The notes under the pieces are model-generated. The model saw nothing but the letters and a program-made list of their open reading frames with translations, did not search any database and had not been told where the DNA came from. From contig JAEEYO010000070.1 of NCBI GenBank assembly GCA_016288205.1, forward strand, positions 62,001-126,000: a DNA stretch of 64,000 bases, read 5' to 3'. The stretch is from Treponema sp. (GTDB taxonomy: Bacteria; Spirochaetota; Spirochaetia; Treponematales; Treponemataceae). The position numbers and the translations under genes are program-made. Of this stretch, positions 31,449 through 40,140 are shown one piece after another. How positions within the stretch are numbered: the first letter of the stretch is position 1; each line of letters starts with the position of its first letter.

Positions 31449-31511
31449 ATTTCAATTATACACCACGAAGCCCAGTTTAGCAAGAAAAGATTTTTCCTTC
31501 ACCGCAAGGTC

Positions 31512-31640
31512 GAAAAAGGCAAAACAAAACACCCGAAAAAGGCAAAACAAAACACCCGAAAAAGGCAAAACAAAATACCCGAAAAAGACAAAACAAAATA
31601 CCCGAAAAAGGCAAAACAAAATACCCGAAAAAGACAAAAC
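31512..31640. repeat. 23-bp tandem repeat, five full copies plus partials
   Basis: The 325-bp gap 31449-31773 is dominated by this array. The unit is GGCAAAACAAAAYACCCGAAAAA with G/A and C/T variation between copies (31518-31632 holds the five full units). There are no spacers, so it is not a CRISPR. It lies upstream of the minus-strand gene that starts at 31448. The core ACAAAATACC recurs in the 23-bp repeat at 56223. Confidence 0.9.
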
Positions 31641-31773: not shown

Positions 31774-34666
31774 TTAGTTCAGCACAATGCAAGGTACCAC
31801 GCCTGTTTCTGAGTTCGTTACCTCGCGATCTTGAACCTTACCAGCTGTCTCAATACAACGTGCTTTTCCCCTTTCCTCTTCTGTCCGGCTCGGACTTCTA
31901 AGCCAGTACTCGCTTGCAAAAGTTTTATATGTTCCTGAATTGTCTGAATCATTACTTTCGCATACGTGCCTTGCCTTTGCATAGTCTGTTGTATGTATCA
32001 GACGCAGTCCATAAAGCACCCAATCAGGTCTATCGTCAAAACCAAGGGCTGTATTAGTTGCTTCCTGAACGCTCAAAACAAAAACTTTGTCACAAGTCGT
32101 ATCGCAGGTATTGACATTGACTCCATTGCCCCATTCACTAGAGTTTCTATTCGGATTAGTACTTTCCGCATCGTTTTCAACAGAACCCTCATAAATCAGA
32201 GACCGTGCACTTGGTGTAAAGGCCTTCTGTAAAAAGCCCTTGTTAAGGTAGCTTTTTGTCTGCGTGTCACCGCTTTCGTATTTACCGTTTAAGAAAGCTC
32301 TTAGAGTAGAATACTTATAATTATTTGCCTTTACAGAACTGCCGTTTATAGTCCTGTTCGACGTCGAAGTATAGTACTGTACACAGTCAAGATTCTTTCT
32401 TGCTATTAAAAGTTTTCTTCCGCTAAAATTACTTGAAGCAAGTCGCCATTCAAGCGGCTGAACCTTAAAGTAGTAGTCTGTATTATTTTGAAGACTTCCA
32501 CCTGCAGTTGTCGAACTTTTTCCAGAAATGTTTGTATGGCACTTTTCATAGAAATAACCGTCACTTCCCAAATACCAACCGTTATAAACAGTGGATGATG
32601 TATAACTTGAGATTGTTGAAACACTTTGCGGATAGTCTCCGAATTTGTAGAACCAGTACCTATTGCCATCAGTCTCCTGCGCCTGCCAGGAAGAAGGTGT
32701 CTGTGTGAGTGAGTCTTTTTTGGCGATGTAATATGTGCCGGATGTTGCATATTTGGATACATCTCCAATCGTTTTATAAAAGATTTTCCAATCTGAATTA
32801 TATACGCCGTTATTATTTGGTCCATTCGGAATTGTGTAGCCGGAAGAAATTGCATCCTCAACGCTTCCATCTGACCAGGCGATTTTTATTGAATTTACAC
32901 CATAGTCACTCATCTTATCACCAGCAAAGAATACGTTTGACGCATGGCTTGCATTTGTTCTGGTAAAATCCAGAGTTCCTTCTATATAGTAACCCGTAAG
33001 GAATTTTGGAATCGTCTTTTCCGTCACATTTCCTGCGTAGTCCGTAAACTTTACCCTCACGTCATAAGCCTTGCCAGGCTGAATACCAGTAACAACGAAA
33101 GACCGTGTGTTTTTTTCTATTTGATCTGAGACATTAAGTACAGAATCAGTCTCGCCGTAAGTAACCTGTGCCAGTTTCACATCATAGAATTCAGGCCAGG
33201 AAATTTTATAATTCGTGCTGTTAGAGCTGCTCACTGTCGGCATGGCTATATCCGGCGGGGTCGTGTCTTTCGTAATGTAGTATTTTTTTCCGCTGGCAGG
33301 ATAAGTAAACTGATTTCCGCTGTTATCCTCGAACATAAAGCTCATGGCATAAACTCCGTCCTCAAGCGTCAGTTTCTCACCACTATCCGCATCATACAAA
33401 TCATTCAAATCAACGTAACCTTTAAACACAGCGTCATCTGCGGTCACATTCTGAAAATCAACCAGCACGGTTTTCTCTTTTTCCGAGGAAGGCACATGCA
33501 CATAATTCTTACCGTAGATTCTTTTCAACATAATCGTAAAATATGACTTCGGTCCCGAACCCGTCTCAGGCTCCTGAACATGCAGATCAAGATAAAGCTT
33601 GTTTTCCTTGATAAAGTTTAGCGTATTGATTCCGCTTCCGCCGCCGCTTGTGCTGACCGTGGGTGATGTTTCCAGAGAAAGAGCATTCGCATCGGACTCA
33701 GAAATTTTCGCGGTGAAATTATCCGCCGAGCCTGTCTTTGAGAATATCAGAGGCTTCGTGTCGGTCTTGTCGTTCACCTGGTACATCCACTTTTTGCTAT
33801 CCGCCATCTCCACACTCTTTCCATCCTTGCGGTAAAAAAATCCCTGGCCTATGGTGACAAGAACCTGAGTGTAGTCCGGAAGAGCATTCTTATTTTTTAC
33901 GGGGATTGAAAGCGTGCTTGCATTCTCAAATACCGGCGCGCCAAAACATTCTGTCAGATTCTGCTTCGTCTTTTTATTTGCCATCGTGATGTTTTTGAAA
34001 ACAGTCTCACCGGAAGAATTTATATATCCGTAGTGATTGTTGGAGTCAATGGGATTCGTCGCGTCAATCTCCGGGAGAAAATCCCCATCAGTCACCCCGG
34101 AGTTTTTCATCTGCCTGAGTTCATCCTCGGTGTAATATATGGAAAAAGGATCCATGTCGAAATCAAAAAGAACCTGAACCACAGAATCTTTGAGCATACC
34201 GGAAGTGAGGGGCGAATATGAAATGACATGAGGACGCTCGGCAAGAACCGGAACCAAAACCAGCTCCATTCCATCCTCGGGAGGATTTTCAAAAGTGCAT
34301 TGTGTCTCGGAATCGGTCAGTGAAGAAATGTTGATGTACGTGCCGTTTGGAATCTCAGTTTCGGATGTCGCGTCCATTATCTTCCAGCGGATAAACGACC
34401 AACCAGTTGAAGAATCGAAGCTCACCGTAAATGTGTCGGTAACTTTTTTGGAAAAAGAACCGCCGGCAGGAGATTTTACGACACCGCTGCTTGCCGGAGC
34501 CTCCACACGGATTGTATAGGACGGAGCATTTGCATAGGCAATCTGATTTTCAATCTCATCCTTTATTTCTTTTCCATCAAGAAAGTTCTGGCATGATGTG
34601 AAAAACGCGGCGAGCCCCCCCAGTCAAAAGTATAGTAATAAGCAAAAATCCGTTTAATCTTTTCAT
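31774..34666 (-). pseudogene. Large Ig/FN3-type lipoprotein gene, out of frame at a G7 tract
   Basis: A start codon at 34666, preceded by GGGAG, opens MKRLNGFLLITILLTG, then a run of seven G (34615-34621) shifts the frame to a stop within ten codons or so. With six G the frame reads GGLAAFFTSCQNFLDGKEI, a normal lipobox, and continues without a break for about 960 residues. The body contains a Big_2/Bacterial repeat-like N-terminus (GWSFIRWKI), an FN3 domain near residue 490 (GIQPGKAYDVRVKFTDYAG) and a C-terminal DUF6273-like domain (WRLASSNFSGRKLLIA, EYWLRSPSR). The intact protein would be a surface lipoprotein. It may be phase variable rather than dead; a sequencing error is the alternative. 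Confidence 0.8.
34615..34621 (-). repeat. G7 homopolymer in a lipoprotein signal peptide
   Basis: Seven consecutive G on the minus strand inside the signal peptide codons. Six or nine would place the gene in frame; seven puts it out of frame. This is the longest G or C run in the window. Confidence 0.85.
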
Positions 34667-34719
34667 ACAAAACTCCCAAACTTAAAATGAAACTCTAAAC
34701 GCCAACAAATATTACCAGT

Positions 34720-34747
34720 ATTATAGATGAATTTTAACACAATTCAA
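34720..34747 (-). promoter_or_regulatory. Promoter of the large lipoprotein gene
   Basis: Minus strand TTGAAT (34742-34747), 16-bp spacer, TATAAT (34720-34725), 53 bases before the ATG at 34666. Confidence 0.6.
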
Positions 34748-40057: not shown

Positions 40058-40140
40058 ACTCTCCACTCTCCACTTTCAACTCTCCACTTTCAACTTTCCA
40101 CTTTCCACTTTCAACTTTCCACTTTCCACTCGCTCCCCCC
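40058..40140 (+). repeat. Heptamer repeat array, ten units, ending at a -35 box
   Basis: The best array of the family: ten consecutive seven-base units of ACTTTCC, ACTCTCC or ACTTTCA (40058-40127), then ACTCGCTCCCCCC, then TC and the -35 box TTGACT. The region contains no open frame of note. Confidence 0.9.

Follow-up and report, generated by a model that had tools for sequence, protein, structure and literature searches.

The DNA window analysed (the whole stretch of 64,000 nucleotides of Treponema sp., assembly GCA_016288205.1, contig JAEEYO010000070.1, positions 62,001 to 126,000) was found to contain, on the minus strand, a large lipoprotein gene with a G7 homopolymer in the signal-peptide coding region (34615..34621), the length of which sets the reading frame. 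Exactly seven C nucleotides were read directly on the plus strand at these positions, the longest G/C run of the whole 64 kb, and the tract was found to occupy codons 16-18, starting 45 bases inside the open reading frame (ORF). A promoter-like site TTGAAT-16-TATAAT (34720..34747, minus strand, a consensus match only, at 10/12 positions) was followed by the presence of a ribosome-binding site GGGAG (34673..34677, minus strand, identified from the sequence), 6 bases from the lipoprotein start codon ATG (MKRLNGFLLITILLTG..., 34664..34666, minus strand), the equivalent of which is in frame with the body in the orthologue L048. The tract is not located inside a promoter, as it would be in a promoter switch of the Treponema pallidum kind, since the promoter-like site lies upstream of the ATG. 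The minus-strand sequence ACTATACTTTTGAC at 34623..34636 is an TACTATAC-N4-G element which points at the tract and recurs at the paralogues of the same genome.

The body frame of the lipoprotein (31774..34614, minus strand) contained 946 codons and a stop, and at G7 it is out of frame with the ATG. A first-pass annotation of this DNA had described a long gene of about 910 open codons with its promoter, ribosome-binding site and ATG upstream in another frame; this arrangement was confirmed, and the frame is long and intact, whereas the figure of 910 holds only from the first GTG. Translation from the ATG at 34666 gave MKRLNGFLLITILLTGGARRVFHIMPELS*, with a stop after 29 residues. The start frame and the body frame are joined by one G fewer (G6) or by two more (G9), so that the earlier statement that exactly one base fewer joins them covers half of the case; the nearest in-frame orthologue has G9. 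The lipobox Cys codon (FFTSC, 34591..34593, minus strand), which encodes mature residue 1, is invariant in the family alignment and stands behind the tract, as had been proposed. The lipobox reads F-T-S-C in the window gene and L-T-S-C in the orthologue; with Phe at -3 it is not quite the textbook lipobox (LAAFFTSC) announced before, although its Cys is present. A basic n-region, a hydrophobic core and the lipobox Cys at +1 were found in one frame in the orthologue and split over two frames in the window.

In the mature protein, the N-terminal half (about residues 1-530; 33004..34593, minus strand) is conserved and was predicted from the alignment, AlphaFold2 and Foldseek to form tandem immunoglobulin (Ig)/Fn3-like beta-sandwich domains, followed by the presence of a C-terminal DUF6273 domain (PF19789; 31780..32415, minus strand; Pfam E 5.6e-14, 52.8 bits against a curated cut-off of 23.5), whereas the Pfam match to Fn3 was weak. 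The AlphaFold2 models of ten sequences were confident over no more than about residues 1-530, where beta-sandwich domains follow one another in a chain, mostly with a predicted local distance difference test score (pLDDT) of 70-90, and the overall mean was 62. The best PDB matches by Foldseek were Ig/Fn3 ectodomains, and because their TM-scores were low, only the fold class is supported for this half. The lipoprotein is putatively surface-exposed. The family members were found to contain a common N-terminal half and differing C-termini, namely FGE-sulfatase in L003, Fn3 in L046, EF-Tu D2-D3 in L006 and DUF6273 in the window gene. The terminal FGE-sulfatase domain of L003 (L003:1516-3906) is of the fold class of known retroelement-diversified lipoproteins, that of TvpA of Treponema denticola, a diversity-generating retroelement target. 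A diversity-generating retroelement beside the window gene was considered and set aside, as no template/variable repeat pair was found within 8 kb in a search that did not extend to reverse transcriptases. In L006 (L006:925-2856, contig C48 of the same genome), which is tract-free and in frame, the C-terminus consists of EF-Tu domains 2 and 3 (Pfam E 2e-16 and 1e-27) joined to the lipoprotein half; the neighbouring ORF does not resemble a ribosomal operon, so that there is no obvious case for a simple assembly join with tuf.

A scan of named genomes gave 13 loci, which lie in Treponema sp. UBA3649 and in further treponeme assemblies, including one from buffalo rumen. The orthologue L048 of Treponema sp. 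UBA3649 was found to contain G9 and to be ON, in frame through the lipobox (MKRLSGFLITTILLTGGGLAALLTSC), with 62% amino acid identity to the window body over 912 aligned codons and 84% nucleotide identity in a 198-nt flank. Between the two bodies the nonsynonymous rate (dN) was 0.29-0.31 and the synonymous rate (dS) 0.76-0.85, and the dN/dS of 0.35 (NG86) to 0.41 (YN00) indicates purifying selection on the body. Because the identity is retained and dN is well under dS, the OFF copy of the window has not long been in free drift. Both frame states were found in close pairs, G9 ON in L212 against G10 OFF in L231 (93% flank identity) and G9 ON in L218 against G8 OFF in L238 (86% flank identity). 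Interrupted tracts in near relatives were in frame, GGGGTGGGG in L050 and GGGAGGGG in L053, a close paralogue of the out-of-frame L051.

In the genome of the window, a 77-contig assembly, a protein search gave 13 related places including the window gene. The signal-peptide tracts were G6 in L002, G10 in L003, G9 in L004, G7 in L005/L046, G6 in L008, G9 in L010/L043 and G8 in L011/L044. Eight tract-bearing family genes, the window gene included, thus contained G6 to G10 at the same place, and all eight were out of frame; the frame change needed is identical in seven of them, and L011 needs the other. A near-identical string ACTATACTTTTGA(C) precedes the tract in all tract-bearing paralogues of this genome except L008, the body of which is interrupted by an internal stop TAA. 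L006 and L012 contained no tract and were in frame. The pattern ATACTTTTGA-N(1-6)-GGGGGG was found at 7 places in the genome, all in the lipoprotein family, and the reversed pattern at 0; as no site is reversed and all lie in one family, the arrangement of ATACTTTTGA with a G run is not due to chance.

With a profile of the first 120 mature residues, the lipoprotein family was found in 43 of 146 genomes of the same genus, with up to 26 copies each. The leader sample (n=110) comprised 100 members found by the profile and 10 of the same genome; it was chosen by profile and not by tract, and start codons were called automatically by Shine-Dalgarno score. G9 was the commonest tract length. Pure G runs of at least 7 were ON in 13 and OFF in 27 leaders, and 13/40 agrees with the 1/3 expected of free slippage (binomial p 1.0). 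Of the 59 leaders in which no G run reached 5, 50 were ON. The nine tract-free leaders which were not ON included four with CAAAT pentanucleotide repeats, two masked by N, two with a weak start call and L227. In L179, L187, L201 and L220 the CAAAT repeats replace the G run in the leader, a second repeat type at the same position.

From the locus anatomy, the differences in tract length and the two frame states among relatives, all read from the sequences compared, the G7 run is very probably the on/off switch of a large lipoprotein by slipped-strand phase variation, that is, a translational contingency locus. The first-pass annotation had proposed a phase-variable lipoprotein, and this proposal is upheld by the varied tract lengths at one place, the 1:2 ratio of in-frame to out-of-frame tracts, the purifying selection on the body and the tract-free leaders being mostly in frame. 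The features of phase-variable genes with simple sequence repeats were found together: a pure homopolymer of about 7 or more near the 5′ end of the ORF, an intact ORF beyond it under selection, and ON and OFF lengths among relatives. Slipped-strand mispairing at the signal-peptide G tract would alter the tract length; one length in three would link the ATG to a mature lipoprotein of 939 residues (an Ig/Fn3-like stalk with DUF6273), and the remaining two length classes would yield a short abortive peptide. The window copy, with G7 in the present assembly, is OFF. With a large phase-variable family and exchangeable C-terminal modules, each cell would be expected to carry its own ON subset; the slippage would be reversible in living cells and within a population, and a benefit may come from antigenic or adhesive diversity.

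Several points weigh against this interpretation. All eight tracts of the genome were OFF, with a chance of 0.04 if each is ON at 1/3, which could reflect selection for OFF or an assembly consensus effect. G7 is at the short end of tract lengths, at which slow slippage is expected. Homopolymers can be miscounted in assemblies, and the presumed heterogeneity of length within a population is drawn from the comparison of assemblies. Automatic start calls may misstate single frame states, the ratio being less sensitive to them, and the tract-free exception L227 is without explanation.

Other explanations of the frame state were weighed against slipped-strand phase variation. If the true tract were G6 (or G9) and the assembly or sequencing in error, the gene would simply be ON. 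Homopolymers are error-prone and the genome is in 77 contigs; however, the same kind of error would be needed in eight paralogous tracts and in two of every three tracts across many genomes, and the tract-free paralogues are mostly in frame. This account was found to be very unlikely, and an error of a single run is inadequate because the pattern is family-wide; an error at the window tract alone is possible but would leave the nature of the locus unchanged. A decayed pseudogene with a fixed frameshift and no reversion is hardly credible: the window copy is OFF and the paralogue L008 has its internal stop, but the 946 codons are free of other lesions, the dN/dS is about 0.35-0.41, and the frame state varies among relatives chiefly where tracts occur.

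Programmed ribosomal frameshifting or transcriptional slippage at the G run, by which protein would be made from the OFF template, was also considered and is highly improbable. The frame change shared by seven of the eight tracts and the conserved string ahead of the run are in its favour, whereas in-frame relatives were found (L048, L049, L092, L104, L109 and L115), OFF copies elsewhere differ in which of the two changes they need, and the string was found in different frames of unrelated genes. In addition to phase variation, a low level of leaky slippage is possible.

The element TACTATAC-N4-G was found to point at G/C runs, often so in this genus, and a mirrored form, G-run-TAC-N4-GTATAG, was also present. 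CTATAC was found within 14 bases upstream of G7 or longer in 67 of the 146 genomes of the genus; a hand tally with one strand per site gave about 78 sites, and 3 of the backwards pattern (about 26-fold), whereas a sample of the phylum outside the genus contained about 18 against 27 backwards and hence no enrichment. Among 70 sites, the fifth base after CTATAC was G in 54, the base before it was A in 55 and the run was 9 long in 34, and the gap between element and tract ranged from 0 to 14. The lipoprotein family accounted for 24 of the 70 sites; the other 46 were in mostly unrelated contexts, including other lipoproteins, an Acyl_transf_3 protein, a D12 adenine methylase, a type ISP restriction enzyme, an SDR and a histidine kinase. 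Because the element spans unrelated genes and is found in different reading frames across them, a role at the level of DNA is argued. The mirrored form was found in 59 of 146 genomes, at about 51 sites, with 8 of the backwards pattern, and examples lie in signal peptides and before genes. Exact CTATAC-N4-GTA-C7+ was found in 21 of the 82 sites listed, where a random choice of the three bases would be expected to place GTA at that offset in about 1.3. In the family sample, an arm was found within 22 bases of 34/46 tracts against 12/62 tract-free leaders (Fisher p 1.5e-8, which is optimistic given the kinship among members); the stretch scanned was longer in the tract-free leaders, a bias that runs counter to the difference. 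In the genome of the window, the majority of TACTATAC-N4-G sites have a G run behind them.

A factor (a DNA-binding protein, a nickase or a paused polymerase) may read TACTATAC-N4-G as a dedicated sequence on either side and make or maintain the instability of the tract, so that slippage would be targeted and not passive; this is put forward tentatively, as a possibility with well below even odds. It is improbable that the element is part of an ordinary sigma-70 promoter and that the tract also regulates transcription, a question which concerns the element and not the frame switch. TATAGT on the opposite strand is like a -10 box and a few mirrored sites are apparently upstream of genes (L263, L272-L274), whereas -35 enrichment was absent from 98 sites whatever the spacing, the distance to the tract is anything from 0 to 14 and many sites are within coding regions. 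A hairpin of two flanking arms was rejected, both arms being found in only 6 of 46 tract-bearing family members. An inserted mobile element carrying the tract was unsupported in the one comparable case, the SDR gene L094 against its tract-free homologues L124 and L125 (about 40% identical); as these are of nearly equal length, the motif of L094 seems to have arisen by substitution. The full palindrome ACTATAC-N4-GTATAG was rejected as a stand-alone operator, being rare in the genus, where 2 sites were found and about 25 of the reversed pattern, and without a run it is possibly avoided.

In the genome of the window, the aminotransferase-like gene at L041 (C75:73499) was found to carry TACTATAC and a G8 run; it is in frame there and out of frame in the relative G025, and the only close homologue carries the tract too, hence there is no empty-site comparison. 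L042 (C75:81527), 8 kb from L041, contained a G10 run in a split hexapeptide acetyltransferase-like gene, and the two are perhaps a phase-variable polysaccharide cluster. Elsewhere in the genus, a type ISP restriction-modification enzyme gene at L079 (G134:C236) contained TACTATAC and G9 together with both arms, and this restriction system may be phase-variable. Among other tracts of the window's genome, a G8 was found close to the start of a secreted protein whose body is PEGA-like and whose start and body frames differ (L037:2153-2160, reverse strand; C54:8833), and an in-frame G8 in the signal peptide of an unrelated lipoprotein (L038:2384-2391, C60; MKKILFRGGLLFAVLFTLIFAGC). The window also contained a 23-bp tandem repeat CGAAAAAGGCAAAACAAAATACC of 5.7 copies just downstream of the lipoprotein gene (31511-31640) and a 7-bp tandem repeat ACTTTCC of about 10 copies (40058-40130).

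The class of mechanism, slipped-strand phase variation of a lipoprotein, is already known, whereas the lipoprotein family, its size and the marked tracts appear to be new as far as a limited literature search shows, in which no mention of the motif together with poly-G was found. The present locus adds to the known cases of phase variation within coding regions a large lipoprotein family of treponemes of gut and rumen, apparently undescribed and with as many as 26 members in one genome; it is predicted that these treponemes display surface-type proteins in many combinations. The element shared next to the runs hints at specially marked switch sites, and its presence at unrelated tracts (lipoproteins, acyltransferase, restriction-modification, aminotransferase) makes a sequence-reading factor, as against autonomous slippage, a testable question.

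In Vpma of Mycoplasma agalactiae the switching proceeds by DNA rearrangement and not by a homopolymer, and the protein family is unrelated to that of the window. Vpma is likewise a surface lipoprotein family with switching expression (PMC2268961). The tprE/G/J, tprL and tp0126 genes of T. pallidum resemble the present locus in a variable poly-G which affects putative surface proteins of a treponeme, and the poly-G of tprL was reported to be 7 to 11 in vivo, mostly 9 (PMC7864442). The tracts of T. pallidum act on transcription, in promoters, whereas the window tract acts on the reading frame, in signal-peptide codons, and the lipoprotein family is different from the T. pallidum poly-G families. 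For Campylobacter and Neisseria, a limited text search, which is not proof, brought up no directional motif common to the sequences next to the tracts. The phase-variable genes of these bacteria differ from the lipoprotein family, whereas the logic of their coding poly-G/poly-C tracts is shared: a tract of 7 or more in the reading frame, reversible on/off switching and many loci per genome (PMC4965091, PMC3786947, PMC5084427).
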